A stretch of DNA of 64,000 nucleotides from an uncultured Thermoguttaceae bacterium (GTDB lineage Bacteria > Planctomycetota > Planctomycetia > Pirellulales > Thermoguttaceae), in assembly GCA_938084835.1 (NCBI GenBank), contig CALKER010000002.1, positions 62,001 to 126,000 of the forward strand, given 5' to 3'. A model generated the notes under the pieces. The model had not been told where the DNA came from. It worked only from the letters and a program-made list of their open reading frames with translations, and ran no database searches. Below, piece after piece: positions 3,285 to 49,520 of the stretch. Position 1 is the stretch's first letter, and each line of letters begins with the position of its first letter. The position numbers and the translations under genes are program-made.

Positions 3285-3287
3285 CCT

Positions 3288-3514: not shown

Positions 3515-5008
3515 TTAACTTTCGCTTTTGCCCGGCGGGTGGGCTTGACGATGGGTAGAGGGCGGAGAGACTTCGGCTGCTAGGCGCAGCTGTTGTTCGC
3601 GGTCCGGATCCAAACCGTGGCGCATGGCCATGGTTTGCGCCGACATAGCACCTGTGCGTACGAGGATGGCGTCGGCCTGGGCCTCCTTCAGGCGGTCCCG
3701 GACAGCCAGGGTGGGAGGAATGGCCTGGATGTTGATATCGCGGAGGACATTCGGCGGGATTTGCCCTAGCCGGGCAGCCGTTTGAAGAACCCGCCACATG
3801 ACCTGCAAGTCCTCCTCGATCAATTCTTGCTGTAGACGCTGGAACATTTTGACGGCGGGTCCTTCTGCCACCATCGTGGAAGCATAGTTAGCGTTGGAGG
3901 CATCGCTGGTCAGCATGAATTCGGGCATGACGAGCCTGGAGGCAATGGCCCGTAATTCCGCCTGAAGCACGGCAACAAAGCGCGAAGCGTCGATTCCGGC
4001 AGCGGGAAATTCGTACTCCGTGCCGGCATAAACATCGAGAATGGTTCCCGGGGCCAATCGTCGCAGGAAAGGCTGGTCGCCCCGCAGAGGCGAGGGCTGC
4101 CCACTGCGGGCGACAAAGTCGTGGACGTGAGGCCAGGCTAAATGAGAATGCCGGCGGATCAAAGCAATGGCCGACTGGATTTCGGCCACAGCACACATAT
4201 TGCGGAGCAGTTTCTCCGCACGACGCAGATTCTTGCGAACGGGGTAAAACAGGGGAAGACCTCGTTTGACGTTGGCATCCACATTAGCCTTACGATGCTG
4301 GATCTCTTCCGCAGGGATGAGCTGACCGTCCACAAAGTACCCTAGGACCGATTCCACATCGTGAGCTTTGGTGAGGATGCCGAAATTTGCGGCGGGGTCA
4401 TCGCGGTGGGCTTCGGGAGTGGAGACCTGATCTGGTTCGACGAACCTGACAAGCAGGGTGCCTTCCGGATCGGGAAAGAACCGCAAGAAGACTTCTCCGT
4501 CGCGATCGCGTCGGCGAACAATCTCCTGTTGGCGTCGGTGCCACATATTGCGGCGGAGGAAGCGGATCAAGATTTCCTGAAGGTGCCACTGAAGGGTCTC
4601 GGGCAATTGCCGTCCCGGCTTAGGGGTGATGCGGTAGCCGTGACCGGTTCCCACGATGTAACTGACCCGATTTTCATGTCCGTTGATAGCAAATTCGTTT
4701 TCTACTGCCAGGGCGCGGCATTCCAGACGGATGGCGGCCAGCTGCGCTTCGGTGGTAAAGGGCATTCCCCGTTGGCTGCCGGGTGGGGAAGGGGCCTCCA
4801 GCGGGAGCCAACGTTGCCCCTCAGGGTCAACATACGCCTCGTCCGGATCTACCAGCGACTGGGCTACGGCTTCAAACAGCCGATTTAACGCTTGGCGATA
4901 GCTTTGCCACAAAGCGTCGAAACCTGTAACGGCTGACTGGGGATTCTGAGCCCCATACCCGCAGCGGTGTTGGGTGTCGTCTGAGGACTGACTGCGGTTT
5001 TCGGCCAT
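3515..5008 (-). CDS. phage portal protein
   Basis: The protein has 497 residues, a usual portal length. It forms the dodecameric ring at one capsid vertex through which DNA enters. Family-like segments are DRDGEVFLRFF followed by VRFVEPDQV, and later MPEFMLTSDASNANYAS, typical of lambda-type portals, where the Asn-rich stretch precedes a helical clip region. The C-terminal 50 residues are polar. The ATG at 5008 has AAGGAG nine bases upstream. It lies 114 bases after the large terminase gene and is the last gene of the minus-strand phage block. Confidence 0.85.
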   Translation of the reverse strand: MAENRSQSSDDTQHRCGYGAQNPQSAVTGFDALWQSYRQALNRLFEAVAQSLVDPDEAYVDPEGQRWLPLEAPSPPGSQRGMPFTTEAQLAAIRLECRALAVENEFAINGHENRVSYIVGTGHGYRITPKPGRQLPETLQWHLQEILIRFLRRNMWHRRQQEIVRRRDRDGEVFLRFFPDPEGTLLVRFVEPDQVSTPEAHRDDPAANFGILTKAHDVESVLGYFVDGQLIPAEEIQHRKANVDANVKRGLPLFYPVRKNLRRAEKLLRNMCAVAEIQSAIALIRRHSHLAWPHVHDFVARSGQPSPLRGDQPFLRRLAPGTILDVYAGTEYEFPAAGIDASRFVAVLQAELRAIASRLVMPEFMLTSDASNANYASTMVAEGPAVKMFQRLQQELIEEDLQVMWRVLQTAARLGQIPPNVLRDINIQAIPPTLAVRDRLKEAQADAILVRTGAMSAQTMAMRHGLDPDREQQLRLAAEVSPPSTHRQAHPPGKSES

Positions 5009-5122
5009 GGTATGATGCTCCTTCGGCTAGCTTGTCGCCGTGAGACGGATACTGCGGCACGGATTGTGAGGACCGCCACATTTCCCTGGCATAGGTTGCA
5101 GGATAGGCAAAAGTGTTTGCCG

Positions 5123-6751
5123 TCACTGTGTTGACAGATAGCCAGTAATTTTTTCGCTCCCGGCGGGGCGGAGGTAACCTTCCGCCACGCGGATGGCAAG
5201 TTCTAGGGCATCGGGGCCGTCGTCGGAGTCGCCATAGGGAAAGAGCCTTAGCTGATCGAGCAGCAAAGTGGTGGGCGGGTGGGATGCCCGAAAACGAATC
5301 CGCCGGGCCGCCAAGGAGGGACCCAATCGGCGGATACGAAGAAGCTTGTTTGCGTGGTTAGTGACCAGCAAAACGGCTGGTGGCAGTAGGCCCTGGCGGC
5401 GAAATTCCTGGCGGAAGGCATCCCCAAGAAGTGATTGGAAGAGATTGGCTTCGATGGCGAACACATCAGGGCGGTGCTGTTGCCACAAGGCGACACCGTC
5501 GGCCACCATTTGGGGGAGAGGGCGGCGAGCCAGATCGGCCTCCACGTAAAAAACTCCATCACCTGCCGTGGCCACAAGGACATAGGCCGAGTAGTCCCCG
5601 TTGGGACTTGTCCCGCCTTGGCTGGGATCCAGGGCCAGCACCCTGAGGGTGATGTTTGGGGGATAGTCGGCGAAGAAGATTTCACCCTGGAAATATTCTG
5701 CTGGCCATTCGCTTTGGTGGGGCAGAAGCGGGCGATTTTGCTTTTCTCGTTCAAAGGCGGCATGGCCAAGCTCGGCGCGAAGGCACATGAGGGCATAAAG
5801 GTCTTCGCGTTGCGGCCATAGGACGCGAGCTCCGGCCTCCATGTCGGCTTGGTGAGCTTGATAGAAAAGGCGGGCTTTGCGGGCTGCCTCTCGATCTGCG
5901 CTTTGCGTATAGATGTTTTCCCACTGCCGCCACAGATCCATGCGGATCGGCCAGCGCTCCAGCGAACAAAAGACGCGCGAGCGCCATCCGGCCCGGCGCG
6001 CAAGTTCCACGGCCAAAGCTTCCGGATGAAGCGCCGTGGCCAAGTGGACGATATTGGTCTCCGGGGAGCCAGCAGGAATCAAAGTGCCAAAGAACCACTG
6101 GCGGCAACGCTCTCGTCCTTCCGGTGTCAACACCTGGCGGTCGTTTTGAATGTCGTCGCACACAATTAGCGTGGGTCGATGCGCCAGCCGACGTTTTCCC
6201 CGAAGGGCCTGGAGCACCCCGATAGCTTCGATGGTGACCCCATTGGCCAGGAAGATAGCCTGTCGCCGGCTGACTAGCGTTCTGCCGGTTACATGCGGAT
6301 AGTCTTGTGCCAGCAAGGGGTTGTGCGCCAGTTCGTGTTTGATGTTTTCCAGATGCGCCAGGGCTTGCCTGCGGGTTTCGCTCACAATCCAGATGTACGG
6401 TTCCTTTCCGTGGACCGCAAGCCATACGGGGAAAGCCAGGGTGGCAATTGTGGACTTAGCATTTCCGCGGGGAGCAAGCACGTTGAGCCGGCTGCCCCGC
6501 GAGGTAACCATCCGCTCCAGTTCCCGGGCAAGCCAGCGATGCATTCGGCTGGGGGGTAGCGTAAATGCGCAGGGAAGGTAAAGGTAGGCCCAGTCCAACA
6601 AGTCCTCTGTGTGTGGGACCCGGGGAGGGGCTCGTCGCTTTTGTTGGCGGAGGTGGGCCATCGTCTCGCGGAACTTCTGCCACAGCACAAGCGCGGCTCC
6701 CCGCCGGAGGCGAGGTTCCCACAATTTCCAGGGGACCACTTGGGCTTTCAT
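5123..6751 (-). CDS. phage terminase large subunit
   Basis: This is a 542-residue DNA-packaging motor with an N-terminal ATPase and a C-terminal RNase H-fold nuclease. The ATPase shows a Walker A variant, APRGNAKST, at residues 93-101 and a Walker B, LIVCDD, at about 195-200. The nuclease acidic residues appear as LALDPSQGG (D375), FAIEAN (E434) and GPDALELA near residue 517. Both active sites look intact. The upstream Shine-Dalgarno is weak and the start may be internal. The gene precedes portal, the normal phage order, but it follows a glycosyltransferase rather than a small terminase. Confidence 0.88.
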   Translation of the reverse strand: MKAQVVPWKLWEPRLRRGAALVLWQKFRETMAHLRQQKRRAPPRVPHTEDLLDWAYLYLPCAFTLPPSRMHRWLARELERMVTSRGSRLNVLAPRGNAKSTIATLAFPVWLAVHGKEPYIWIVSETRRQALAHLENIKHELAHNPLLAQDYPHVTGRTLVSRRQAIFLANGVTIEAIGVLQALRGKRRLAHRPTLIVCDDIQNDRQVLTPEGRERCRQWFFGTLIPAGSPETNIVHLATALHPEALAVELARRAGWRSRVFCSLERWPIRMDLWRQWENIYTQSADREAARKARLFYQAHQADMEAGARVLWPQREDLYALMCLRAELGHAAFEREKQNRPLLPHQSEWPAEYFQGEIFFADYPPNITLRVLALDPSQGGTSPNGDYSAYVLVATAGDGVFYVEADLARRPLPQMVADGVALWQQHRPDVFAIEANLFQSLLGDAFRQEFRRQGLLPPAVLLVTNHANKLLRIRRLGPSLAARRIRFRASHPPTTLLLDQLRLFPYGDSDDGPDALELAIRVAEGYLRPAGSEKITGYLSTQ

Positions 6752-6969
6752 GGAGGAAACATCCTGCGGATTGCCTTAGGGGACACCACACCATAGGCGG
6801 CGACCGGCGCCAACAGTAAGTAGCTGGCCCAGTGTGCGGATCATCGTCCGGGATGGGCTGCAAAGCGCGCTTCCTTGCCGCCGGTAAACACCTGACAGAG
6901 CCTTGTGGGTGTTGACCCTATGTGGGTAATTTTCGTTTCATCTCGGGGGCGCCGTTAATGCCGCGGGGG

Positions 6970-8064
6970 TCACCGCCGGGAGGCGGGCCGCGCCGCCAGT
7001 TCCCTTGAGTTACCAAAAATTCGCGAGTTGCCTTCCAGTGCCAAAAATTTTTGCCACAAAGGTATAAGCTGCTCTGGGGCGGCCAGAGAGGCCACCTTTT
7101 GCCGGGCAGATGTGGCAAGCTGGAGTCGCAGCCGATCGCTGTCGGCAAGGAGCCGCACGTTTTCGATTAATTCCTCTTCCGTGCGGAAAAGCAGTCCTGT
7201 GTGGCGATGGGTGATCATCTCCGGCCAGCCGCCGGAAGCAGGGGCAATAACAGGGACCCCGCTGGCCATCGCCTCAAGGCCGATTCTTGGCCAATTTTCG
7301 ATGGCACGGCCTCCCCAGCCTAACAGGACGTGAAGCGAAGCGAGGAAGGCCCGGGCAGGCATTGCCCCCGGTGGCAGAACCTCAGCCCACGGTGGCGGGG
7401 CACCTACATGCCGCTTCACCTCTGCTGACCAACCCATCAGGCGAAAACGCAGGGGCCGGCGGGTCTGTTCCAAAACTTTCCACAAATTGCGCGGCAGTTT
7501 GGCAGGATCGGCACGACACAGCCGGCCGATCACAAGTTCCTCTCCCGCTTCTCGCCGGCGGAAAGACCATGGGAATTCATCAGCAAAAAAGGCCCCGGGG
7601 ATTCGGTGGCAGTGCTCGCGCTTGATTCCCCAGGCAGCAAGCTGCGGAAGGAGAGTGCGGAGCTGGTATCGGCTTTGAAAAAGATAGCCGTCAAAGGGCC
7701 CAACCTCCGCGTACACTTTTTTCTCCTGAGGAAAAAGCCAATTCATACAGCCGGCCCAGAGGAGGCGGCAACCAAGGCGACGAAGCTCCGCCGCTACTTC
7801 CAAAAAACGCCGGTTGCAAAAGGCAATCATCGTGGCGCCTGCAAGTTCTGGGCAGTGGGCCAACTGGGACGGGTGGAGGACCCAGATGCGGCAGGAAAGG
7901 CCCTCCACCTTGTCGCGCCAAGCCGATGGCGGCTCCTTGGGTACAATACAGGTGATCTTCAATCCCATGAGCCGCCACAGCCGCAGTACATGCCATAGCT
8001 CGGTACTTGCGCCACCAATTTCTCCCGGAAAGCCCAGTACAAAAAGCGCGCGGTTTTTGTCCAC
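6970..8064 (-). CDS. glycosyltransferase family 4-like protein within the phage block
   Basis: The 364-residue protein has a two-domain GT-B layout. The N-terminus FPGEIGGASTELWHVLRLW resembles the GT4 glycine-rich acceptor-domain motif. The C-terminal half carries PRIGLEAMASGVPVIA with GWPEMI, the nucleotide-sugar binding signature with the second glutamate of the EX7E element. No signal peptide or membrane segment is visible, so it is probably cytoplasmic. It has a GTG start with GAGGAC 11 bases upstream. It lies between an unknown phage gene and the large terminase, all on the minus strand. It may glycosylate a virion protein or modified DNA; it could also be a host-surface-altering cargo gene. 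Confidence 0.8.
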   Translation of the reverse strand: MDKNRALFVLGFPGEIGGASTELWHVLRLWRLMGLKITCIVPKEPPSAWRDKVEGLSCRIWVLHPSQLAHCPELAGATMIAFCNRRFLEVAAELRRLGCRLLWAGCMNWLFPQEKKVYAEVGPFDGYLFQSRYQLRTLLPQLAAWGIKREHCHRIPGAFFADEFPWSFRRREAGEELVIGRLCRADPAKLPRNLWKVLEQTRRPLRFRLMGWSAEVKRHVGAPPPWAEVLPPGAMPARAFLASLHVLLGWGGRAIENWPRIGLEAMASGVPVIAPASGGWPEMITHRHTGLLFRTEEELIENVRLLADSDRLRLQLATSARQKVASLAAPEQLIPLWQKFLALEGNSRIFGNSRELAARPASRR

Positions 8065-8122
8065 AACGGTGTGATGTCCTCGAAGGATGGTGTCGGATTT
8101 TGAGGTGCCGACTGGCCGGTTT

Positions 8123-8944
8123 TTACCAAGCTAAATCGAGGATCAGGGCAAAGTCCGCTAGCGAGTAGAGGGGGCGGCCATCGGCAGCGGCCCGCTCCCA
8201 CATTCCTGTTTGCGCAGACCGCTGATGGTTCCAGCCGAGTGTCTCCCCCGATTCCTCGTGCCATCGTTCGAGGAAGCGGAAACAAAGTTCCCATAGGAAG
8301 CCGACCTCCCGGCCTCCAGGAGGCATGTGGGTGGCTGCCATCTCTACCAAAAGAAGCGTCTCGGGCGGAAAGCCGAGGAATTCCTCTGCGTTGACCTTTC
8401 CTCGCAGACGCGCAAGGATCTCCCACGGAGGCTCCGCCGGTGACATAAGCGTTAACAGCCACTGACTTGTCGGCAGAAGCCGCTCTGAAGGGAAAAACCC
8501 GGGGAGGAAACTACCCACACCCGCCCCCCACAGGGGATCTGGTGCGGAGGCACCGCACCAGGTCCCACCGGTCGTACCCAAAGGTCTCAGAATGAGCGAC
8601 GGTCGGAGGGCGTAAACAGGTGTGGGAGGATGCCCGAGGTCGACCCAATATTCGACCTCTGCCTCCACCAGGGTGCGGGGTGGGAGGGTCTTTTCGCCCG
8701 ATCGGGTCCCCGGCCGGCCTGCGGGGTTGGATTCCCGGAAGCGAATCGTCACCGCATGCCCCGGCGGCAACCCGCCGCCTACAATCGATTTGCTTGCCCC
8801 TTCCGAGGTTTGCCGGGCGAAAACACTCTCGACGAACTCCCGGCGTTTTGTCCACGGCACGAGAAAACGGTGCCAACTCTTAACAGAACAGCGGGTGTAT
8901 TCCTCCGCAGATTCTCCCACGATCTCCGCCGGTAAGTGCTCCAT
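8123..8944 (-). CDS. unrecognised phage-block protein
   Basis: I do not recognise this 273-residue protein. The chosen ATG at 8944 has GAGGGAAA nearby; an in-frame GTG at 8959 would add five residues. The N-terminal part has CSVKSWHRFLVPWTKRREF and a segment rich in beta-type residues, and the C-terminal part is helical with many Trp and Leu. There is no signal peptide. It lies 58 bases upstream of the glycosyltransferase in the same transcription unit, so a structural or assembly role is possible but unproven. Confidence 0.6.
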   Translation of the reverse strand: MEHLPAEIVGESAEEYTRCSVKSWHRFLVPWTKRREFVESVFARQTSEGASKSIVGGGLPPGHAVTIRFRESNPAGRPGTRSGEKTLPPRTLVEAEVEYWVDLGHPPTPVYALRPSLILRPLGTTGGTWCGASAPDPLWGAGVGSFLPGFFPSERLLPTSQWLLTLMSPAEPPWEILARLRGKVNAEEFLGFPPETLLLVEMAATHMPPGGREVGFLWELCFRFLERWHEESGETLGWNHQRSAQTGMWERAAADGRPLYSLADFALILDLAW

Positions 8945-9214
8945 GATTTTTTCCCTCACAGTGGGGCAAGTGGGCCGAACTCAGAACGGGCTTGACAGTT
9001 GTCCTGGGGTTTTGTCCTCCGCCCAGGGACAACAAGCAAGCGACCATCATCTCCGCCCAATGTGGCCAGAGTTTCTTTTTGCCGGTGACTGAGCCAGCAT
9101 GTACCAAGGTGCCAACGAAGAAGTTCGATTTTTGCGCCTGGCTGCCGGAGGCGTTTTCCGGCTCCCAAGAGGAAAGACCCCTGTGTATGGCCTTTCCGCG
9201 GTAGCAAGCGTTGT

Positions 9215-9916
9215 TTACCACCAGAAGCTTTCCTCGCCACTTGAATCCTCCCAGGAGGAAGAGTCGCCGAAGCTGCTGTCCTCGGAAGAGGGGTCCTGGG
9301 AGTCGGAGGTCGTTTCCGAAGAGCCTTCGTCGGCGGAACTATCCGCCGGCTCGGAGGAACAATCGGAGCTAGAGGAGGCCTCTGGGGACTCCGGTGGTGT
9401 TTGGCCAGGGGAGTCTTCGAACTCGAGGAGTCTTCCCACCACTGCCAGGTCATAAACAACGGGAGCCTGGAGGGCGGTTAATTCGATGGTGAGAGCAGAG
9501 GGACTTACTGCCCAACCTTGGCCGGGGGAAGCTATCACGGCCACGCTCTGCGGCGGCAGGAGGAGCGCGGCCTGCGAATTCCACGGGCCTTCCCAACCGT
9601 CCTCCGGCCCCGGGCCGATCCGCAGCATGCCACCCTCCTGCGATCGGTTGTGAATCCAGAGGAGTTTGATTCGGCAAAAGCCAAGGTAAATGAGTCGGCC
9701 GAAGATCTCTCGCGGAAGGAGATCCAGCTCGACCAATTGGCTTTGCCCGGCAGCCAGTTGCGCCGACTCCTGCAGCCAGAGGCCGTCCGTGGAGGAAGGT
9801 CCAAGGGGCCGCCAAAAGCGCAGGGTGTGATTGTCAAGCACCGTCGCCGCGTGGATTTTTTGCCGCCACAAATAACGGAGTTGAAGTAATAAACCGCCTT
9901 CCAGCCGAAGCACCAT
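9215..9916 (-). CDS. phage-block protein with a Ser/Asp/Glu-rich C-terminal tail
   Basis: The 233-residue protein is not recognised. Residues 1-170 look like a beta-rich globular domain (GLLLQLRYLW, then LLLPPQSVAVIA). The last 60 or so residues are almost wholly Ser, Asp, Glu, Pro and Thr, a disordered acidic tail ending in EESFWW. It follows the tail-completion-like gene after 19 bases. A minor virion protein is plausible. The tail could be a flexible surface extension, but that is inference. Confidence 0.6.
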   Translation of the reverse strand: MVLRLEGGLLLQLRYLWRQKIHAATVLDNHTLRFWRPLGPSSTDGLWLQESAQLAAGQSQLVELDLLPREIFGRLIYLGFCRIKLLWIHNRSQEGGMLRIGPGPEDGWEGPWNSQAALLLPPQSVAVIASPGQGWAVSPSALTIELTALQAPVVYDLAVVGRLLEFEDSPGQTPPESPEASSSSDCSSEPADSSADEGSSETTSDSQDPSSEDSSFGDSSSWEDSSGEESFWW

Positions 9917-9935
9917 CGCAGTTGACTCCTTGCGC

Positions 9936-10343
9936 TCAGGTTTCCGATGTGGCCAGGGGGATAAAGATTACAGCCACAAAACGGAGGCTTTTCTCCCAAT
10001 AATCTCGAATAGCGACGACGGGGGTGGCTTGATCGAACCACATGCCAACCAGTAGCTTGCCCGCCGATAGAGGATGCACCCAGCCTTCGTACGCACTTTG
10101 CACCTGCCTAGCGATTGCCTCCAGCTGGGAAAATTGGAGGGCTCTCAGGCAGATATCGAACTCCACGCGGTGAAGATACCCTGTGGTCGTGCGAAAGCTG
10201 GTAAGCTCTCGGCCGGGGACAACCACGGCGCACGGAGGGCGGAAAGAACCATCGCCCGTTATCACCCGCCAGCCGGGCAGAAGCGCACGCAAGGTGGCAG
10301 TCCGCTCCCAGCGTTGGTGGATGGCAGCATATAGCTCGTACAT
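9936..10343 (-). CDS. phage tail-completion/terminator-like protein
   Basis: A 135-residue protein beginning MYELYAAIHQRWERTATLRALLPG, the pattern of DUF3168/tail-completion proteins: an N-terminal helix followed by an alternating beta sheet with FDICLRAL and a C-terminal LRFVAVIFIPL strand. Such proteins cap the head-tail joint or the end of the tail tube. It follows the two-domain adaptor-like gene in transcription order, as expected for a connector region. No tube or tape-measure gene follows, which is odd for a tailed phage. Confidence 0.55.
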   Translation of the reverse strand: MYELYAAIHQRWERTATLRALLPGWRVITGDGSFRPPCAVVVPGRELTSFRTTTGYLHRVEFDICLRALQFSQLEAIARQVQSAYEGWVHPLSAGKLLVGMWFDQATPVVAIRDYWEKSLRFVAVIFIPLATSET

Positions 10344-10452
10344 AGCTTGTGGTGCCCTATAGGAGAGGGGCCCATACCTGTGCTAGCCCGCGATGGCGGC
10401 CAGCGGCGGTCAGAGATGGACTGGTTGTTGCTTTGCCCGGCCGCCGCTTCAT

Positions 10453-11094
10453 TTACCGATCGCATGTTTCAATGGCCTCCACCCAGGGAAGCTGATCGAC
10501 GCGCTCGGCAGCGTGGACGGAGAGGACCTCCAGAACTTTTCCCGCCGGTGTGCGAAGGCGAAGATAGCAGTCCAGCGGGGGACATTCCTCCAGCGTGATG
10601 CGATAGCGTCGCTCATAGCCGGTGCGGGCCGAGCCAGCCCGCTGCGCCTTCCACAGGGCTACTCGCGCCCGGAGGCCAGTCTTCCACACATGCCACCCGC
10701 GAGCCAGGGTCCCATCCGATTGTTTACGAACGGAGAGCATCTCCACCGTCACATGCCTATTCAGCCCATGCGTTAGCACAAGGTCACGAGCATAAAGTAC
10801 CCATCGGGAAGAGGCGGCAACAAGCTGACAGGTGAGGACCGTCCAGCGCCGACCGTCGCTTGTGTCCACGCGATCCCCAGGCTGGGGTGTAAAATCTGGT
10901 GCCCACGCTAGATGGATGATCACATCCTGCGGCAAGGAGCCATCCTCCCCACGTACCGGAGCGCGTAACGATCGCGGCTGAAGGACCACTCCTTCCACTG
11001 ACAAGCTCTGGTTGGCACCGGCTTGCCAATGGCGGAGGGATTGCCGGGCATCGGCAATCCGCCATAACTCGCTCGCTAATGAGGCAAGTTCCAC
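10453..11094 (-). CDS. probable head-tail adaptor with two similar domains
   Basis: In this 213-residue protein two segments look alike: PQPGDRVDTSDGRRWTVLTC in the first half and CYLRLRTPAGKVLEVLSV in the second. Both resemble the small beta barrel of phage head-tail connector (SPP1 gp16/gp17-like) proteins, where a DGRRW-V pattern is common. The N-terminal 40 residues look helical. The position between a small helical protein and the tail-completion-like protein supports a connector role. The family call is tentative. Confidence 0.5.
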   Translation of the reverse strand: MELASLASELWRIADARQSLRHWQAGANQSLSVEGVVLQPRSLRAPVRGEDGSLPQDVIIHLAWAPDFTPQPGDRVDTSDGRRWTVLTCQLVAASSRWVLYARDLVLTHGLNRHVTVEMLSVRKQSDGTLARGWHVWKTGLRARVALWKAQRAGSARTGYERRYRITLEECPPLDCYLRLRTPAGKVLEVLSVHAAERVDQLPWVEAIETCDR

Positions 11095-11240
11095 CGCTTA
11101 CTCCTTTTCTGGCAAAAGCTGGCAATCGCTTCCAAGTACAATTAACCCGCGCGAAATCGATCCGCGTGATATGTTTTCCGCACATATCCCTTGTGGATCA
11201 CTTATTGCGTGAGTAGTCCGGATCGCTGCATCGGTAGGCC

Positions 11241-11453
11241 TTAGGTGAAACCTTGGGAGCTAATCTCTATATTTTCCAGAGCTGCCAATTTTTGTTCGCA
11301 CCAAGCCAGCAGATGCCGCAGCTCCCGAGTATATTCCGTCCACGCCACCTGTTGGCCATCCAGTTCGTAGGAGGGTTTAGGGTGGGCGGTGACTTCGGCC
11401 AGTAACGCAAGAACTTGGCTTCGGATCCGTCGCAACTGTAAAAGGTCGTTCAT
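11241..11453 (-). CDS. small helical phage-block protein
   Basis: A 70-residue protein, mostly helical with a Leu heptad-like pattern and several Trp. GGGAGAG lies at a proper distance before the ATG at 11453. The sequence (LELDGQQ-like centre, HLLAWCEQKLAAL) fits the tiny proteins often found between head and connector genes in tailed phages. No function can be assigned. Confidence 0.55.
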   Translation of the reverse strand: MNDLLQLRRIRSQVLALLAEVTAHPKPSYELDGQQVAWTEYTRELRHLLAWCEQKLAALENIEISSQGFT

Positions 11454-11657
11454 TGCGAAGCTCTCCCGTGTTGTTCACCTGCGCAGAAGGGTTCTGAACG
11501 TAAGGCTCATCTCTGGGTTAAGGGTTCCTCATCCGCCGTAGTGCCGCTTTGGCGGGATAAGCGTTTAGCCCGCAGATTGTTTAGGTGATGGGGCTGGCTG
11601 GGCGCAAAATAAAGGGAAATCAAGGGGCGATTTTGCCTCTGCATACTCTGAGAACGA

Positions 11658-12071
11658 CTAAATGGTGTAAACTCGAAACCGAACGATAATCACCTGACCT
11701 ACCGCCGGCTGTAAACGAAACTCCACTAAATAGTGCCGGCCAGCTCCCGGGAACGGGGGTGCCACCGCAGCATCGAGGGTATGGCGAAAGTTATATCCTA
11801 CTTCGTCAACGTCCCAGGGATAATCTCGGCGAAGCTCGGGTAGTAAGAGGTCGCGGACGGCAAGGCTTCGGGCGTGATGCCCCGGTACGGCCTGGCGGTA
11901 GTTGGGATCGCTGAGGTTGAGCTCGTACACGGAATACTCTGCCGCAATCACGTCATCTGGCCGAAGCGGTGCCCCGAACTCGTCAACGACGCGGGCAAGC
12001 AACGTTGCCGTTCCCCCACGGAAGGCCACACCGTAAATATCGAATGCCTGCGCTACCGGTGATCCATTCAC
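11658..12071 (-). CDS. unrecognised beta-rich phage-block protein
   Basis: A 137-residue protein. The N-terminal half has RGGTATLLARVVDEFGAPL, an immunoglobulin-like or bacterial Ig pattern. The C-terminal strand GRHYLVEFRLQPAVGQVIIVRFRV would complete a beta sandwich. No catalytic motif is seen. It lies between the LamG-like gene and the small helical gene on the same strand. It is probably a minor virion or decoration component, by context only. Confidence 0.5.
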   Translation of the reverse strand: MNGSPVAQAFDIYGVAFRGGTATLLARVVDEFGAPLRPDDVIAAEYSVYELNLSDPNYRQAVPGHHARSLAVRDLLLPELRRDYPWDVDEVGYNFRHTLDAAVAPPFPGAGRHYLVEFRLQPAVGQVIIVRFRVYTI

Positions 12072-12298
12072 AGGTAAAACCCTCCGGATTTCCTCCGGGA
12101 GACCGGAAAAGCTCCCAATTGCCCCTGGCCTCTGCTAGTACGGTCGAGGTGGTTTTGGTTGTGGCCCCATGGTGGGGCTTAATCCCGTTGCCGGGGTGTG
12201 AGCTGGCAAATGCAGGCGGGGTCAACACAGGCCCCATCATCCGCGGGCTAATCTTCACCAGCGGCTTAAGCTCAAAAGGCAGTTGGAAATTGTGTCTT

Positions 12299-13105
12299 TT
12301 AGCCGGCGATCTTCCCCCAAGATGGGGACAGCACCGAAACCTTGGCTGCGGCCACGTGCGAAGATTGTACCTGGCCGATGTGAGGCCACGCCCGGCTGGA
12401 AGCTCCGCGCACTTCCGTCCAAAAAGCGAGGCCCCCACCGCCAGGCTGAAGAATCATCGGTCCCGGCAGGGGAGATGGGTCCCCGGAGGCGGCAAGAGGA
12501 TGGCTACCGTGCAGATCACCCCATCCGTCGGCCAACGGCCAGAAGGAGCCAAGCAGACCCCGACCGACTACCAAGCGGGGATCAACCCCCGACAAAAGCG
12601 CCATTATCTGCCGGGGGGTTAAGATGCCGCGGCCCAAAGCCACCCAGGCCACTGCGCCGGCAAAGTAAGCTGTTGGTTGCGCGGTAGAGGCTCGGGCAAA
12701 AGCAAGCTCGTTGACAAAGGGTACGGACACCGCCTGGGTGTTGATTCCTGAAGCCTCCCGAGTGTAAACGGCGCGGCGAAAGCTTGCTGGCCATTCGGCT
12801 ACCACCGGTTGCCACACTGCCGGAGTAAGGGGCCGGCTGGCCACGGCCAACGCGCGAGCGTGCCAGGGACCCATGCTTACCGCGGCCGGATAACCGCCGG
12901 GTAAAACTTCCAGAGTAAAATACGATACGGTCGTCGTCCGACTCCCCAAGAACACCACAACCTGCCGCGATTCCCCGCCAAGCGGTTTGATCCACAACGA
13001 TAACCACCATGGTGGACCGGTGATTGTTGGCGGCTGGAGGGAGCGGCAATAGCTCTGCCTTTCCGGATCAAACTGGTAACCCATGGGAAAGTCCGTTTCG
13101 GCCAT
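12299..13105 (-). CDS. LamG/concanavalin-like protein of the phage block
   Basis: With the ATG at 13105 the protein has 268 residues; a TTG at 13132 is the alternative. The pattern PWWLSLWIKPLGG, a central FAGAVAWVALGRGILTPRQI and the late LGSFWPLADG follow the layout of LamG-like jelly-roll domains, in which a strand with W-L-W is followed by an A-V-A-L-R-L-T region. Such domains bind carbohydrate or act as receptor-binding or decoration modules in phages. The gene lies just downstream of a short unknown protein and near the capsid gene, so a capsid-surface or adhesin role is plausible. Confidence 0.55.
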   Translation of the reverse strand: MAETDFPMGYQFDPERQSYCRSLQPPTITGPPWWLSLWIKPLGGESRQVVVFLGSRTTTVSYFTLEVLPGGYPAAVSMGPWHARALAVASRPLTPAVWQPVVAEWPASFRRAVYTREASGINTQAVSVPFVNELAFARASTAQPTAYFAGAVAWVALGRGILTPRQIMALLSGVDPRLVVGRGLLGSFWPLADGWGDLHGSHPLAASGDPSPLPGPMILQPGGGGLAFWTEVRGASSRAWPHIGQVQSSHVAAAKVSVLSPSWGKIAG

Positions 13106-13171
13106 CACCCCTCGGTCGCTGTGTCGGTCCAAATATCCGGTATTCTTAGCGCTTGGTTCGCAGTGGAAAGG

Positions 13172-13657
13172 TTATCCTAAGGGACGAACAATAATCCGTA
13201 GTAGTTCACACTGCCCGGTGTACAAACTGTGAAGGGTGCTGCTTATAACACGCAGACGGAAGAGATCACCTCCGGCAACAGCAGCGCTTCCCTCGCCGGC
13301 CGAAAATGTCGCCTCACCGACGACCACCGTGCCTTCTTCCGGTGGCACTGGGAGCGTTACCAGCTGGGGAGGACTTTCCGCGGGGGTGTAAAGGCTGGCA
13401 TCGGCCGCCGGCAGTCTTGTAAGGGCCACTTCCAGGCTGACCCGGTGCGCCGGGGTGTTGTCACCCGCGAAGGTAGCCAAAAGTGTCACGCGAAGTCCTT
13501 CCCCGTGGTAAACAAGCGGCATCACCGCCACGAAATCCGCCCGATAACTCCCCGAGGCGGGAAACACCACCACAGGCCAGCCCTGGCGGATATCGACAAG
13601 CGCAGGGTTGGCTCCGGTGGGGATGGCTGCTTGCGGGCAGAGGTCGATGGCCCACAT
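13172..13657 (-). CDS. unrecognised phage-block protein next to the capsid gene
   Basis: A longer frame reaches 13852, but the ATG at 13657 has a strong AAGGAGG nine bases upstream, so I take a 161-residue product. It is rich in Val, Ala and Leu with alternating strands (WPVVVFPASGSYRADFVAVMPLVYHG) and no Cys cluster. It lies about 190 bases after the capsid stop and 66 bases before the LamG-like gene. A head-completion or decoration role is possible. It is not assigned to a family. Confidence 0.55.
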   Translation of the reverse strand: MWAIDLCPQAAIPTGANPALVDIRQGWPVVVFPASGSYRADFVAVMPLVYHGEGLRVTLLATFAGDNTPAHRVSLEVALTRLPAADASLYTPAESPPQLVTLPVPPEEGTVVVGEATFSAGEGSAAVAGGDLFRLRVISSTLHSLYTGQCELLRIIVRPLG

Positions 13658-13848
13658 CCCTTTAATCCTCCTTCGCCGATAGTTGCTCCCACGGAGGTGC
13701 TGAACAAGTAAAAACAGGTCTTTGGCACGGCCGAAATTTAACGACGGGATTAAACGGTTACCCGTCGTTTGACACCTGCCGGATCCGTGTGCCGCCCACC
13801 GAAGTTTTGGCCCATGTAGCAGGTCGCACCCCTGCGCACTGGCCGAAC

Positions 13849-15009
13849 TCACGCCGTGCAGCGGACCACGTAACGCGGGTCGAGCACTGCTGGGGCACCC
13901 CGCTCACTGGCCTTGAACCGCACCAGAATGTCCTGCGTAAACTCGGCTTCCGAGCCGGGCGGCGATTGCGTCACGGTGATTGGCCAGTTCTCCATGTAGG
14001 CGAACGCTTTCCCAAAATCGCCGAGAAACCACCAGCTGCGGGCTTGGTCGGCGGGTACTCCCGAAGCGATGATTCGCCGGTAAAGCAACCGACTCTCATA
14101 AACGCGGTAAGTGCGAAGCAAGTTGCCCGTGACAATTGCGCCGGCGGCCGTCTGCACCGAGAGCTCGTGACCGAAGAAGATCCGCCGCGCCGCCTGCCGA
14201 TATGCCGGTGTCACCACCACCGTGGTGGCGTCCACGAGGATCGGTTCGCCGGTGGTGGGATCGACCATTTCCGCAAAGAGATTTTCCGCTTTGTCCACAC
14301 TGGTCCAGTCCACAAGCTCGTTGCCAGCCAAAGCATTGACCCAGGGGCCTTGGTCCTCGGCGTGATAATAAGTGTTAAAGCTTTGGCCATTCCAACGATA
14401 TGTGTTGACAGCACCAATAACGGTGTCGCTAATCCGTTTTTCTTTGGAGAGGCCCAGGATTTGCCCGACTTCCGCCGCACGGCGAAGGACTAGCCCCGTG
14501 CGATCGAAGAAAATCGCCTCCCGAGTAATGGGCACGATGAGCCCGTGCTTAGTCGTAGCCGGTGTCTCCACGTAATCCTCGCTGAGTCCGACATGCGGAT
14601 AGGGCATGCCAGGGTGAATCGGTGCGGCCACATCTCCCAGCCGTCCCACGCCGGGAATCCGCTCCCCGTCCAGCCGGGTGGGAATCGTCGGCACCAAACG
14701 CGACAACACGAAAGCCTCGCTGCGGTATGATTCGAGGATCTTGCTATAAACAATCTGGCCTGTGACCTGGAGGAAGGCGGTTGCGTCCACAGCCTCGGTA
14801 CTTTCGCGGAGTACTGTATCGCTGCGCGGATTGAGGTTGCGGACCCAGTCGCGTCCGTCGGGCACCAGGGCCTCGGCAAGCTCGCGCAGGCTGAAGTCCT
14901 CCGGCCGAAGGTGCCCAGCTTGGATCGCCTCCCCAAGGTGCCGCACTGTCGCCTGAGGTCCGTCCAGTTCGTAACGCCGCCGTAGTTCGCGATAACAGAT
15001 CGTTGCCAC
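13849..15009 (-). CDS. phage major capsid protein
   Basis: The 386-residue length and position after the protease and a small decoration-like gene fit an HK97-fold coat protein. The N-terminal 60 residues are helical and charged. Then come SEAFVLSRLVPTIPTRLDGERIPG, TKHGLIVPITREAIFFDRTG and a C-terminal domain with ATTVVVTPAYRQAARRIF and FKASERGAPAVLDPRYVV, which parallels capsid proteins of many tailed phages. It has a GTG start with AGGAC just upstream. I cannot define the exact family. Confidence 0.75.
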   Translation of the reverse strand: MATICYRELRRRYELDGPQATVRHLGEAIQAGHLRPEDFSLRELAEALVPDGRDWVRNLNPRSDTVLRESTEAVDATAFLQVTGQIVYSKILESYRSEAFVLSRLVPTIPTRLDGERIPGVGRLGDVAAPIHPGMPYPHVGLSEDYVETPATTKHGLIVPITREAIFFDRTGLVLRRAAEVGQILGLSKEKRISDTVIGAVNTYRWNGQSFNTYYHAEDQGPWVNALAGNELVDWTSVDKAENLFAEMVDPTTGEPILVDATTVVVTPAYRQAARRIFFGHELSVQTAAGAIVTGNLLRTYRVYESRLLYRRIIASGVPADQARSWWFLGDFGKAFAYMENWPITVTQSPPGSEAEFTQDILVRFKASERGAPAVLDPRYVVRCTA

Positions 15010-15130
15010 GTCCTGACCCCTTGTGATTGTGATGGTTCTGCTTCTTCACGCGAACGGAAATGTGATGTACCCCTTGCCGGAAAAAGCCTCCGTGCCGCCG
15101 CGCCCAATGAGGCTGGATCCACGCTGCCAA

Positions 15131-15616
15131 TTAGCTTGCCGGAGCGGTAGTCCCCGCAACACCCCCTGCCATCACGGTGGAGCAAATTTCCACAAGAATC
15201 TTGGTAGTGGGCCGGTCGCTGCGGGCGGCAACTCGGCCAATAGCCTCAGCGGCTTCTGTCACTTTTTCTACCTGTTGACTAAGTGGGCTTCCGCTGGTTT
15301 GATCAATAGCCAGCCCTACCCATTGGCCTAGGCTACAGGTAGTGGCGGCTACATCGAATTCGAACACCCCTCGCGTAGCCACCCGGATAGCTTGGCTTTC
15401 GCCACGCCGGCTTTGTTGCATCGCTACCCCAAGAAAGGCTGCGGCAAAACTACGGCGAGTAGCAGCCGCGGTGCCTGCCGGGGGAAAACTATGGGCCGGC
15501 TTGGCCAGACCCCCGTCCAACCATATCAGGTCTCCAATTTCGATGGTACTTTCGGTGTCCACAGCTGCTACTACAGGTGCCGTCTCTCCGTATCGCCAAC
15601 GCATCACATTAGCCAT
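15131..15616 (-). CDS. probable capsid decoration/head protein (DUF2190-like)
   Basis: The ATG at 15616 has AAGGAG seven bases upstream; the frame extends further but without a good start. The 161-residue protein has VAAVDTESTIEIGDLIWLD near the N-terminus and FLGVAMQQSRRGESQAIRVA with GVFEFDV in the middle, the pattern of DUF2190 and other capsid-stabilising proteins in which a strand carries the A-V-G-D-L segment. It is located between the protease and the major capsid protein, the usual place for a decoration protein. Confidence 0.6.
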   Translation of the reverse strand: MANVMRWRYGETAPVVAAVDTESTIEIGDLIWLDGGLAKPAHSFPPAGTAAATRRSFAAAFLGVAMQQSRRGESQAIRVATRGVFEFDVAATTCSLGQWVGLAIDQTSGSPLSQQVEKVTEAAEAIGRVAARSDRPTTKILVEICSTVMAGGVAGTTAPAS

Positions 15617-15855
15617 GGCTGGCTCCTTATGTTTGGGGTGTAGCGTTTTCGACCATTGACCACGTATCTCCGCTGAACGGGTGTCCGGTGACGCTCGATT
15701 CTCGGCCGCGAGGCAAAAATCGGAGGCCCCATTAGTGGGCTTGGCCGGAATGGTGCTTTCGATCGGCCAGAAATTTCCCTCGGCCCTCCACCGGTTGTTG
15801 AGCAAAGCCCCAATCGCAACTTGTGGGGCACAGGGTGATCGTCCCAGGGGAAGAC

Positions 15856-16866
15856 CTAGCGGCAAATGGCTTGGACAAAGTGCTTCACGTCATCGCCCCA
15901 ACGAGGTGGGGGAGAGGCTGGCCGGCACGAGGGGATTCGGGCCGTGCCCAGCCCTTTGGTTGTGGCATAAAGTTCGGCTCTTTTTCCCACCAGTCGTCGT
16001 ACGGCCTGAGGGTCGGTTGCTTGGTAGAGACTCTCCAGGAACGATTCGTCAACAAGCTCGGCGTCAAAGCTTGGTGTTCCCGGGAGAGGCAGACCAAACT
16101 CCGCCAGGGCCCGCCAAATGGCCAGTGTTCGTTCCGCATGCTCAAGCTTGTGCCGAAGCAAGGTGACTTCTTCCCGGAGTTGACCGATGGCCTCATGTTG
16201 CGGAGCCCGGAGCGCCTCCGCAAGCGGAGGACAAATTTTCTCGACATCTTGCGCCGTTAAAGTCTCAAGCATAGCCCGCATCCACGCCCCAGGAATTTCA
16301 ACCGGCAGAATGGCGCTGGCTTGGGCGTGCGCTGGCATGTGGCTGTCGGCCGCGGACTCTGCTGAGGTTTTTGCTTCAAAGAGTCCGTCGGTCGTGGCCG
16401 GATCAGCCACCAGATCCACACTGAAGACATGGAGGATGGCTTCCACAATTGTTTCTTCCCCCTGCCGATGGGTGCGGGCTAGCACGCTGTGCGACAGCCC
16501 TACATTTTCCGGCAGATGTTCGGCATCCCAAGCCAACTGCTCAGCCAGCGCGTGTTTGGGGTTGTACACAAGATCAGCAAAAAGGCCTTCTCCGTCCACA
16601 TACCGTACTTGGCGGATCAAACCAATTCGGTCTCGATAGTCCCGGAATGTCCCGGGCTGGCTTGCCCCGTGACCCACGTTCACTTTTGCCCGCTCATACA
16701 GTTTGCACGCTTGCCGGAGCGTCTCTGCGGGGTAAATCCGCTTGTTGCGGGAACGTAATCCAAGGAGCTTCACCCCGTGGATGACTCCTGAGCGTCGGTC
16801 CACCCGCACGAGACGCTCGGATACACTCCCCCACTCGAAGAGTAAAGCCTCGTGGCCTGCCTCCAT
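15856..16866 (-). CDS. prohead maturation protease with C-terminal scaffold-like region
   Basis: The 336-residue protein starts at an ATG with AAGGAGA six bases upstream. Residues 1-170 resemble herpesvirus-assemblin-like phage prohead proteases: VNVGHGASQ, then LPENVGLSHSVLA with the likely nucleophile serine, then AILHVFSVDLVADPATTDGLF, the hallmark SVDLV-PAT segment. The C-terminal half has a charged coiled-coil (AIGQLREEVTLLRHKLEHAE), as in scaffolding proteins. Protease and scaffold fused in one frame is known in some phages. It is the first recognisable gene of the minus-strand block. Confidence 0.75.
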   Translation of the reverse strand: MEAGHEALLFEWGSVSERLVRVDRRSGVIHGVKLLGLRSRNKRIYPAETLRQACKLYERAKVNVGHGASQPGTFRDYRDRIGLIRQVRYVDGEGLFADLVYNPKHALAEQLAWDAEHLPENVGLSHSVLARTHRQGEETIVEAILHVFSVDLVADPATTDGLFEAKTSAESAADSHMPAHAQASAILPVEIPGAWMRAMLETLTAQDVEKICPPLAEALRAPQHEAIGQLREEVTLLRHKLEHAERTLAIWRALAEFGLPLPGTPSFDAELVDESFLESLYQATDPQAVRRLVGKRAELYATTKGLGTARIPSCRPASPPPRWGDDVKHFVQAICR

Positions 16867-45766: not shown

Positions 45767-46712
45767 GGAGAGCTTCCAGTTCTTTCCCGGTTGAAACTTG
45801 CGAGCTAGTGCCAAAGAGGCCCTCGTGTACAATCGTCTGTCTAAATTGCATTAGGGATGAAGTCACGGCTGGAGGACGGCTAAGGAGTCTTGCCGAGATT
45901 GACTATCGTCTCTATGGTACCGGGGTCAAAACCAAGGAGTTTGTTAACACATCCCCGGCGATCTCATCGGTTGAAGTTGCCTGCCTCGCTCTACTACTTG
46001 TCAACAGCGTGAAAACTTTTACCTCGTTGGCGTAAGGCGGGGCTCATGCACTAGCGGCTGGAAGCAGCAACCCTAGCCGGCAATGGCACCAACCGGCAGG
46101 GGCCGAAAGTCAAGAACTGCCCCCATCGCCGACCCTCAAGAGCCTGATTGTTACGTACCTCCAGCGGAAAAAGTCCTGACTCAGCTGTGGCCCGGCGCCC
46201 CCAAACCAGTGGTCCTAGTGTTTTTCCCCAGGCAGTTAGGGCAAGGCCAGCCGGCGATGGTCTCGGGGTCGGGGGTGACCGATCCCCCCTTTGCAGTTAG
46301 GGCGAAGGGGAGATTAGTACGACTGCGGGATTGCTGATTTCGGCATAAAGGCTGGATCAATTCCGAGGAACTCACACTCTGGGCAAAGCGACAGAGAGTT
46401 TTGGCGGAGTGATCCCCCTATAAATTTCCCCTTCAGGAACCTGCCTCGAATTCCTCCTCAGAGCCGATGCTTCGCGGTTTAGGAAGCTAAGCAGCAAAGT
46501 AAGCTTTCTTGGCCTCATGCGCTCAGGGTGGTCAGGTTATGTCCCAACTTGTTGAGCTATGCCTTGCAGTTGATCCGCCCCGGAGTGTACCCTCATATCG
46601 GTACATATGTTCACATCTGTGGCGGCGAAGAAAGGGGCGTGAGGCACGCGAAGGCAGACCGAATTTTTGCCGTGTGTGAATTGGCGTGATCGTTAGTGGT
46701 GAGGCTCGCGTG
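45767..46712. other. gap within the plus-strand cluster, with a 61-base spaced repeat
   Basis: About 950 bases with no convincing gene. A direct repeat pair lies at 46221-46312. Confidence 0.5.
46221..46312. repeat. direct repeat pair, 61-base spacing
   Basis: GCAGTTAGGGC occurs at 46232 and 46293, each preceded by a run of C (TTCCCC or TCCCCCC) and followed by G/A-rich sequence. The intervening sequence is unrelated. The spacing matches that of the other repeat sets. Confidence 0.4.
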
Positions 46713-47105
46713 ATGATCTCCCACGATAAGCTTGAGACGATCGTGGCACTTGTGGCCGAGGGAAAGCTTAGTCAGCGGGCTATTGCGCGCAAGGTTGGTG
46801 TCAGTCGCAATACGGTGGCGGCGATTGTCCATAAGCGGCGCGATTGTTACCAGAAGGCCCTCCAAGCCAGCGGGAAAGAGACAGCTGACGGAAGTTTGGT
46901 TCGGCGTCGTGGGCGATGTCCCCTCTGTCGGGCGGTGGTTCTCCTTCCTTGCCTTGCCTGTTTGGTGCGGCAACTGGTGGCCGCCGGGGCCCTAAGGCGG
47001 CTTTCCCCAGGAGCAGATGAGCCGCTGCGGTTGGAGCTTCGCCCCGCGGAGTGGCGCCGCTACCTCCGCATTCGCCTCCAACGAGAGCTCCTTGCACGGC
47101 GCTAA
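46713..47105 (+). CDS. HTH protein with two CxxC zinc-knuckle pairs
   Basis: The ATG at 46713 gives 130 residues; GTG codons upstream at 46686 and 46710 are alternatives. Residues about 6-41 form a helix-turn-helix (KLSQRAIARKVGVSRNTVAAIV). A CPLC (69-72) and a CLAC (80-83) follow, likely one zinc site, then a basic Leu-rich helical tail. Probably a DNA-binding regulator of the cluster. It precedes the papain-fold gene by about 50 bases. Confidence 0.7.
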   Translation: MISHDKLETIVALVAEGKLSQRAIARKVGVSRNTVAAIVHKRRDCYQKALQASGKETADGSLVRRRGRCPLCRAVVLLPCLACLVRQLVAAGALRRLSPGADEPLRLELRPAEWRRYLRIRLQRELLARR

Positions 47106-47140: not shown

Positions 47141-47154
47141 CAAAAGAGGTAGTG

Positions 47155-47784
47155 ATGAAGTTCCCTATGAACCAGGGCCAGACGACGATAGCTTGGCCAC
47201 GACAGGTTCACTTGAGGCCATTACGACCGGTGGCATTTTCCCAAGCGGTAGCCCAGGTGTCGGACGGCGATCTGCTTCTTTTCCGACGGGTGGGGATAGT
47301 GGCTCGTGCGGGACGGGGTGTTCACTCGCACGCAGCGATGGCCGCTTGGTGGGACACGGAACTTTTCCTTTTAGAGGTGACCCCACGGTACGGTGGGAGG
47401 GCGGTACGGTTGGCGGCTGCTGTGGAAAAATATCCTGGCCGAATTGATCTCTTCCGAGCCGATCCGGAGGGGCATTATCCCCATTTTGATCGCAGGGGTG
47501 CTGTACAGGCCATGCAGCGGCTTATGGGCCAGCCCTATGGGTGGGGACGTCTGATGGGGATTGTGCTGCGGCGCTTACCCCTGCTTCGGCTTGTGCTTCC
47601 AACGGCCACGGCCGGTGAGACCCCGGTCCATCAAGCGGCTTTTTGCAGCGAGGCGGTGGCCTGGGCCGCCAGGGTTGGCGGTGGGGTGGATCCGGTCCCC
47701 CACTTGGCCGACCGCTTCACCGAACCGGCCGATTTGGCGCGGAGCCTCTTCCATCGCTATTGGCTTACCTTTGTGCCGGGATGA
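47155..47784 (+). CDS. YiiX/NlpC-P60-like permuted papain-fold hydrolase
   Basis: The 209-residue protein has AGAGGT before the ATG at 47155 (a GTG at 47152 is also possible). DGDLLLFRRVG near residue 37, HSHAAM with H57 or H59, LFLLEVTPRYGG, and FCSEAVAWA with C164 follow the layout of circularly permuted papain-fold enzymes of the YiiX/YaeF class, where His comes before Cys. These cleave peptides or amide bonds, often in the cell wall or on lipids. No signal peptide is seen, so it may be delivered by another route. In phage or GTA clusters such enzymes serve as tail-associated cell-wall hydrolases, but that is inference. Confidence 0.65.
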   Translation: MKFPMNQGQTTIAWPRQVHLRPLRPVAFSQAVAQVSDGDLLLFRRVGIVARAGRGVHSHAAMAAWWDTELFLLEVTPRYGGRAVRLAAAVEKYPGRIDLFRADPEGHYPHFDRRGAVQAMQRLMGQPYGWGRLMGIVLRRLPLLRLVLPTATAGETPVHQAAFCSEAVAWAARVGGGVDPVPHLADRFTEPADLARSLFHRYWLTFVPG

Positions 47785-48095: not shown

Positions 48096-49520
48096 GTGAC
48101 GGAGCGTTTGTTACTAGCCCTTGAGCTCGTCGTTGGGATGACGATGGCCGTTGCGCCCTCGTCCAGGGCGAAGGCGAGCGTGGGTGCCACTTACTGGGGC
48201 AGCGGATTTTATAGACCAATTTCGCAAGGGTGCCAATCGTTTTCGGCCGACGCCGCCACGGCGTGGGATAGCCGCACGAAATCGGCCTGGGCCATCGGCC
48301 CGCTTTCTACGCCTGCACTGCTGGCCAGCTCGCCGGGCATCTTTGCTACCGGAGTGGCAACGGCTCCAAGGGACTGCAAGGCAACACCGGCGGGTCCGGT
48401 GCCTACACAACCCCATCGGGCGGTAGCTCGGGTGATTGCCGGCCAGTGGAAACGCAATTACGGAACAGGAACGGTGGTGGCCGCGGCTTCGGACCGGGCT
48501 TGGCTGGTTACGTGCGCCCACTTGTTTCAGGGAATTCCGCGGGGAGGGGCCGGTCCCCCGGTGGTGGCTCTTTTCCCGGATGGTCAGCGCGGGCTTGGCC
48601 GGTTGATCGCTTTGGACGAAACGTGGGACCTAGCGCTCGTGGAGCTTCCCGGGATAACGATTCAAGCGGTGAAGGTCGCCGAGCACTCCCCACAGGTGGG
48701 GCAATGGTTGACAAGTTGCGGTTACGGGTCCGAGGGGCAATTTGCCTGTAACCGGGGCCAACTGCAAGGCTATGTGTCGCCTGGCCGGAGCCCTATCCGC
48801 GAGATGTTTACCCTCTCGGGAAAGGCACGCCAGGGAGATTCCGGAGGACCGGTTTTCGACAGCTCCGGCCAGCTGGTGGGTGTGCTGTGGGGAAGCGATG
48901 GCCAGGTGGTGGTAGCCACCGGCTGTAGCCGGCTGCGAGAGTTTCTCAGGCGGGTGTTGCCCGAGTGGGAGCGTCATCCCGGAGCTTCTCCACCTCGTGG
49001 GTCGGAGCCACCTCCCGGCACTTGCCCGGCACCTTGTGACGGGGATCGCCATGCCTCCGAAAGCGCGGTGTCTCGCACTGAGCTAGCGGCTTTGGCCGAG
49101 CGGGTGCGAAAGCTCGAGCAAGAAGTAGGCCTGGGCGGATCGATCGAGGCCCCCACGCGCAGACTCAGCGAACGATTGAGGCAACTGGAGGAGGCGGCAG
49201 CCTTGCTACCGGCTTTGCGCCAAAGGGTGACCGAGGCAGAACAGGCCCTGGGATCGGCCAACCTTCGGGCCGTCGTCCGCGATGTAGCTCTTGGCCTCCT
49301 TGCCGAGCAGACGCCGTCGGTGGTTGATCGGCTCGTGCCCCGGTTGGTGGAAGCCCTTGGCTGGACCACACCCCCCTCGCTGGCTTTGGTCCTAGCGTCG
49401 CGGTTGTTAGCTCGGCTTTTGGCTCGCCGGGCGGGTGCAGTTCGTCGACAACTCCGCCGGCACAAGGTTCCTTCGGCGCGATCGGCACCTACAAGGGAAT
49501 CACCGGCGGAAGAGAGATAA
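48096..49520 (+). CDS. exported trypsin-like protease with coiled-coil C-terminus
   Basis: The 474-residue product has a GTG start with AAGGGG eight bases upstream. Residues 1-27 could form a signal peptide. After about 105 residues of Ala/Pro/Ser-rich sequence a chymotrypsin-fold domain shows GTGTVVAAASDRAWLVTCAHLF (H142), TWDLALVEL (D178) and ARQGDSGGPVFDS (S249), so the triad is intact. A charged helical region (about 330-395) looks like coiled coil and is followed by a basic tail. It is not closely similar to the first protease outside the catalytic domain. Confidence 0.82.
   Translation: MTERLLLALELVVGMTMAVAPSSRAKASVGATYWGSGFYRPISQGCQSFSADAATAWDSRTKSAWAIGPLSTPALLASSPGIFATGVATAPRDCKATPAGPVPTQPHRAVARVIAGQWKRNYGTGTVVAAASDRAWLVTCAHLFQGIPRGGAGPPVVALFPDGQRGLGRLIALDETWDLALVELPGITIQAVKVAEHSPQVGQWLTSCGYGSEGQFACNRGQLQGYVSPGRSPIREMFTLSGKARQGDSGGPVFDSSGQLVGVLWGSDGQVVVATGCSRLREFLRRVLPEWERHPGASPPRGSEPPPGTCPAPCDGDRHASESAVSRTELAALAERVRKLEQEVGLGGSIEAPTRRLSERLRQLEEAAALLPALRQRVTEAEQALGSANLRAVVRDVALGLLAEQTPSVVDRLVPRLVEALGWTTPPSLALVLASRLLARLLARRAGAVRRQLRRHKVPSARSAPTRESPAEER

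Follow-up and report, generated by a model that had tools for sequence, protein, structure and literature searches.

A GTA-like head and DNA-packaging gene cluster with an apparently reduced tail in the planctomycete order Pirellulales

The gene transfer agent (GTA) systems named in the literature we surveyed are proteobacterial. That of Rhodobacter capsulatus (RcGTA) retains a tail tube, tape measure, distal tail and baseplate (PMC7296036), and its tube, terminator, stopper and distal tail proteins have one common fold and bind each other (PMC7296036). The cf-PICIs, which are capsid-forming satellites, carry capsid, protease, portal and connector genes together with both terminase subunits, without tails (PMC10690885). 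In a 2021 survey, the large terminase (TerL) of a planctomycete prophage (Zavarzinella) was placed near RcGTA-like TerLs (PMC7947584). Our literature search found no description of the cluster reported here in the papers searched.

We investigated this cluster in a stretch of 64,000 nucleotides (the window), which comprises bases 62001–126000 of contig 2 of a 4.75-Mb planctomycete genome (~93% complete) and whose best capsid matches are relatives named Thermoguttaceae or Pirellulales. As in RcGTA, head, packaging and neck genes of an apparently domesticated siphophage sit in the host chromosome, the genes are inherited vertically over a large clade, and the locus can split; profiles of two neck candidates also give weak matches to the stopper and terminator of RcGTA. 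Among the flank genes that were family-searched, no conserved integration or replication gene was recognised beside the cluster. In contrast to RcGTA, the cluster belongs to another phylum and another phage lineage, is known here from genes, and has partly or wholly lost the tube, tape measure, distal tail and baseplate. In anatomy and inheritance the cluster is GTA-like, yet it falls outside the RcGTA family: the RcGTA series of stopper, terminator, tube, tape measure, distal tail and hub is incomplete in the window's genome, and the nearest TerLs of named phages (Rhizobium phage RR1-B and Pseudomonas JBD26) are 35% identical. Like cf-PICIs, it combines head and packaging genes without the bulk of a tail, yet it keeps a tip-like gene; unlike them, it shows no integrase, excision or replication module, lies between host genes, and is order-wide, mostly single-copy and host-congruent rather than mobile and patchy.

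One cluster in two modules

The head block (3515–16866) is occupied by 14 minus-strand open reading frames, one of just 70 aa; the sequence-only reading had the strand right and counted 13 genes. The set of protease, capsid, connectors, TerL and portal that it had named was borne out by family matches. The putative prohead protease (15856..16866, −), of the HK97 type with His and Ser, matched phrog_29592/207 weakly, and its catalytic H66 and S125 are invariant in 175 homologues, with D151 at 98%. Gene g244 (15131..15865, −) lies between the protease and capsid genes, in the same place in 170 loci, and from this position may be decoration-like. The major capsid protein (13849..15009, −) matched PF25209 with 64 bits against a cut-off of 27, as well as phrog_133; after it come the variable gene g226 (13172..13852, −; 24 loci), g277 (12299..13132, −; 54 loci), a possible LamG/ConA-like accessory protein (PF13385, E 0.005, below cut-off), and g137 (11658..12071, −; 77 loci), a conserved small protein. 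At the other end of the block lie TerL (5123..6751, −; ATPase plus nuclease, phrog_38 4.1e-84), whose Walker A K/S, Walker B DD and nuclease D/E/D residues are invariant in 125 sequences, and the portal (3515..5008, −; PF05136 E 1.7e-18, phrog_21 1.6e-35). A glycosyltransferase of the element (6970..8064, −; PF00534) has homologues in phage G150, contig G160 and a genus mate, and downstream of g278 in some relatives.

The neck was assigned through more distant matches. The conserved 70-aa protein g70 (11241..11453, −), found before the stopper in 154 loci and in virus contigs G148, G149, G150 and G153, is adaptor-like by position. The candidate stopper or head-closure protein g213 (10453..11094, −; 148 loci) gave profile matches to 2kz4, SPP1 gp16 and the RcGTA stopper Rcc01689 (E 0.006–0.09) and to phrog_161 Hc1 (E 0.027), and the candidate tail terminator g135 (9936..10343, −) matched RcGTA Rcc01690 over its full length (E 0.067); a g135 homologue in phage G149 matched the phrog_78 tail terminator (E 0.0013). 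Both profiles were built from 28 sequences, and their matches, weak alone, agree with the gene order. Beside the terminator, g233 (9215..9916, −) is predicted as a beta-sandwich (model core pLDDT >90) with a Ser/Glu-rich tail, for which no confident fold match was obtained; a jelly-roll coat protein was considered and dropped, the Foldseek TM of only ~0.3 not being trusted. Gene g278 (8123..8959, −) is distal-tail- or tail-tip-like. The stopper, terminator and tip assignments are thus remote ones. Searches of PDB sequences with the capsid, g233 and g278 profiles gave nothing useful, PF03354 did not match the window's own genome (a family mismatch), and RNA-family and tRNA searches of the window returned none.

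Host genes flank the block on the left (RecO, DHPS, QPRTase, SAHH, ParAB) and on the right (FHA, SAM hydrolase, GatB, GatA), neither flank carrying an integrase, and a check for prophage parts outside the window found host metabolism over the 20 kb past its left end. The arrangement expected of an intact prophage, with integrase, replication genes and a complete tail near the head genes, was not found. A 19-nt direct repeat near both block ends (3272–3290 and 16843–16861, 18/19 match; matched by 0/60 shuffles) was considered as an attachment site, a reading on which we do not rely: one copy is the end of parB, and the ParB C-terminus is conserved in genus mates. The other copy is at the protease start. 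Contig 15 of the same genome (G000, L296:6687–8207 and 13774–16020) holds, near its end, an additional, divergent TerL (phrog_38) together with a portal (phrog_113) that belongs to a different family; the two appear to be a separate prophage or phage remnant.

By clustering the genes around TerL in relatives, we traced the other half of the element, overlooked by the sequence-only reading, to 46686–52435 (+; module A), ~30–36 kb from the head block in the same window. It comprises an HTH/Zn-ribbon DNA-binding protein and candidate regulator (46686..47105, +; upstream of the ParB-like gene in 16 loci), a YiiX-like peptidase family protein and lysis candidate (47152..47784, +; 21 loci, E to 2e-64), assigned by eye and with no Pfam match, a trypsin-like peptidase (48096..49520, +; PF13365 E 1e-21, 40 loci), a ParB-like protein (50002..50556, +; 84 loci, phrog_723/620), an ABC ATPase-GNAT acetyltransferase fusion (50475..51893, +; 94 loci) and the small terminase, TerS (51947..52435, +; phrog_4102 E 2.8e-16). 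The fusion matches phrog_11143 (E 1.5e-88), which is annotated as of unknown function, and immediately precedes TerS in most loci. In relatives, the ParB-like, ABC-GNAT and TerS genes run directly upstream of TerL, often preceded by the peptidase genes. The earlier statement that lysis genes are absent needs correction for a possible lysis peptidase ~30–36 kb from the block in the same window. Upstream of the ParB-like gene in 12 loci (for example, G126 5044–6123) is an endonuclease/exonuclease/phosphatase-like protein (by eye), which was not found near module A of the window. In family f7 loci, the trypsin-like and ParB-like genes enclose a further gene (for example, G136 9192, +, 277 aa) that is 84–88% identical and more conserved than the capsid within that family.

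In a genome of the same genus (G001), the YiiX-like, trypsin-like, ParB-like, ABC-GNAT, TerS, TerL, portal, protease, g244 and capsid genes form a single run up to the contig end; a second contig carries g278 and the remainder of the capsid gene. Most relatives have the order TerS-TerL-portal-protease-capsid-connectors. One cluster has therefore been split into two modules ~30 kb apart in the window's lineage: the unusual order pointed out earlier, with protease and capsid first and terminase and portal last, is real, but secondary to this split and not the original arrangement. The rearranged order, adjoining the same FHA gene, is common to the window and G002, and TerL-portal lies apart from protease-capsid in other relatives as well (for example, G016, G017 and G124). 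We also considered a circular permutation as the source of the odd order, but TerS has remained at 52 kb and relatives often have TerL-portal apart from protease-capsid, so a split into modules was preferred.

Tail genes in phages and chromosomes

The block had been described as without a tail. In agreement with this, a tail-tube profile found no match anywhere in the window's genome, the contractile-tube family PF06841 had none there, and the tape-measure family PF10145 reached only a sub-threshold 14.9 bits; on the other side, two block genes missed earlier, g135 and g278, are a putative neck terminator and a tip-like component. The tail of the window appears reduced rather than wholly absent, and this ~93% complete genome may contain small genes for receptor binding or a tip that went unrecognised. 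In the predicted model of g278, residues 9–108 gave lambda tail tip and baseplate proteins as best matches (Z 7.0–6.5); most, though not all, of the leading hits to this N-terminal domain are of these two kinds, which scored 7.0 with the lambda tail tip, 5.3 with SPP1 Dit and 5.1 with RcGTA. A Z of 7, below 8, is suggestive of a tail-tip-like protein without reaching the level at which a common arrangement is excluded. Foldseek with the g278 model yielded no significant match in the PDB and only uncharacterised phage proteins among viral models.

Two planctomycete-associated phages from IMG/VR share much of the cluster: G149 (a 37.9-kb contig with DNA polymerase, helicase and exonuclease) and G150 (45.4 kb, 45,403 bp, with a 144-bp terminal repeat) have capsids of 46–50% identity, g244, g70, stopper and terminator, and in G150 TerL, portal and protease are homologous too. 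Unlike the window, both carry a full tail in the order terminator, tube protein, chaperone, tape measure and then, as the first gene after the tape measure, the g278 homologue; g233 was found in neither.

We observed the tube protein in 32/148 Pirellulales genomes and g278 in 82/148, and in some chromosomes the tube protein sits between g233 and g278. The window's genome has kept stopper, terminator and tip-like protein, with tube and tape measure not found. The complete chromosomes G096 and G113 have the genes from TerS to the stopper and neither tube nor g278, and those of family f7 keep TerS to stopper, with no terminator, tube or tip gene found past the stopper. These results show a graded loss of the tail among Pirellulales chromosomes. 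Three loci with wider spacing (L249, L234 and L238) keep the tube, the chaperone and sometimes a short tape-measure-like gene, and are possible intermediates or less reduced forms.

Distribution, copy number and inheritance

TerL (E<=0.001) was detected in 113/148 Pirellulales genomes, and in 79 of the 94 good ones (completeness >=90%, contamination <=5%). The capsid gene was found in 100/148 genomes, representing 68 of 83 genera, and in 77/94 good ones; it was not detected in the other 17. Cultured Botrimarina, Bythopirellula and Aeoliella strains carry the cluster. When the phylum was sampled evenly, only one family of the same class and one other genome gave clear matches outside Pirellulales. 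Nearly all of the 100 genomes have the capsid gene at one locus, a second, divergent one occurring only in G075, G093 and G103; in other genomes with several matches, the genes are either broken or truncated at contig ends. G038, G058 and G115 have numerous short TerL fragments, frequently of the C-terminal nuclease end, scattered over different contigs and often away from contig ends.

The capsid diverges no faster than the housekeeping protein GatB (mean distance 0.31 vs 0.34, 17 genomes), and the distances of all seven element genes tested correlate with those of GatB (Mantel r 0.28–0.58, p <= 0.014). The element trees mostly mirror host descent. Groups recovered by both the element and the GatB trees are the window's genus with its sister G026, family f7 with the pair G145/G128 and, for the genomes present in both, family f1. 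Members of family f2 are split, so that part of the element tree is incongruent, and some horizontal exchange has probably occurred. Two of the checks proposed in the sequence-only reading bear on this. Comparison across planctomycetes showed the gene order to be conserved and the element to be mostly single-copy across the order; dN/dS values of 0.05–0.32, where computable, are consistent with purifying selection but not decisive, as dS is saturated (G000 vs G002). With the minor incongruence in f2 and this saturation, the overall picture is one of vertical inheritance under purifying selection across the clade.

Explanations and proposed working

The sequence-only reading had offered a degraded prophage, a GTA-like particle and a head-only element. 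The latter two fit the gene set, conservation and inheritance. On balance we consider it probable that the cluster is a siphophage set of morphogenesis and packaging genes that has been domesticated, resembles a GTA in anatomy and inheritance, and has had its tail shrunk to a stub. A prophage in decay would explain the missing integrase, replication and tail genes and the two-module split; the cluster is conserved, mostly single-copy and intact in ~100 genomes of 68 genera, with invariant catalytic residues, a capsid as conserved as GatB and largely host-like trees, which contradicts this explanation, the most improbable of those weighed. Scarcely better placed is a scenario in which a single prevalent lineage of planctomycete phages was captured several times independently and its head genes survived preferentially: related tailed phages exist, and f2 incongruence and the extra divergent copies would agree with it, but trees are congruent at genus and family level, and the upstream ParB-like and ABC-GNAT genes, conserved in the order, were not found by profiles in the five virus contigs searched.

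Two further explanations are unlikely, though less so. A capsid-forming satellite that makes heads, borrows tails from co-resident phages and spreads like cf-PICIs would have the gene set of the cf-PICI list (PMC10690885), and tailed relatives exist as possible tail donors; against it, no integrase or replication gene was recognised in the conserved set, host genes stand on both flanks, and the element is mostly present in one copy whose trees largely follow the host and whose modules drift apart on the chromosome. Slightly better placed is the idea of heads without delivery, that is, DNA-packaging shells for DNA export, protection or altruistic release, for example, in which tail genes were lost because injection is unneeded. 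The invariant catalytic residues of the packaging genes and the f7 chromosomes, which end at the stopper, are in line with this, but g278 in more than half of the genomes, the window's included, points to a tip that still serves a purpose in them.

Under the favoured reading of a domesticated, GTA-like cluster, a siphophage morphogenesis and packaging cluster would have been captured early in Pirellulales; since then it has been kept as a host-encoded element by descent, which conservation, copy number and tree shape show. Given the intact catalytic residues, the likeliest role of terminase, portal, protease, capsid and stopper is to assemble a head and load it with DNA: TerS/TerL would fill the proteolytically matured head through the portal, and the stopper would close it. 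Because no replication gene was recognised in the conserved set, the cargo would most likely be host DNA, as in gene transfer agents. With the tube, chaperone and tape-measure genes lost but g135 and g278 retained, the tail is probably a stub in the window's lineage, where the neck may meet the tip almost directly, the terminator contacting the tip with few or no tube rings; the shared fold and mutual binding of the RcGTA proteins make such a neck-to-tip stub plausible. More speculatively, the YiiX-like peptidase encoded in module A may serve for release. The least secure part of this proposal is the passage of DNA from one cell to another. Beyond it, we tentatively put forward an order-wide, vertically inherited DNA-packaging head whose tail has been progressively dismantled, from a neck-to-tip joint in the window's lineage to stopper-capped heads without recognised delivery in one family, which could be either a GTA variant delivering without a tube or a host-owned shell with another use.

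Dozens of short "viral" IMG/VR contigs (loci L206–L256) have capsids 54–67% identical to the window's and are probably chromosomal pieces of the element rather than viruses; many IMG/VR entries of this kind would thereby be mistaken for viruses. For Planctomycetota, a candidate spread over a whole order would represent a separate domestication in another phylum, and because the group has cultured members carrying the cluster, it is directly testable. Together with the tailed phages and the tube-bearing and tube-less chromosomes, the graded tail loss forms a natural series for asking how much of a tail a host-owned DNA-packaging particle needs. That the cluster, with most tail genes missing, has stayed intact across the order, largely by descent and as a single copy, points to a use for the bacteria, perhaps in packaging DNA or passing it on.
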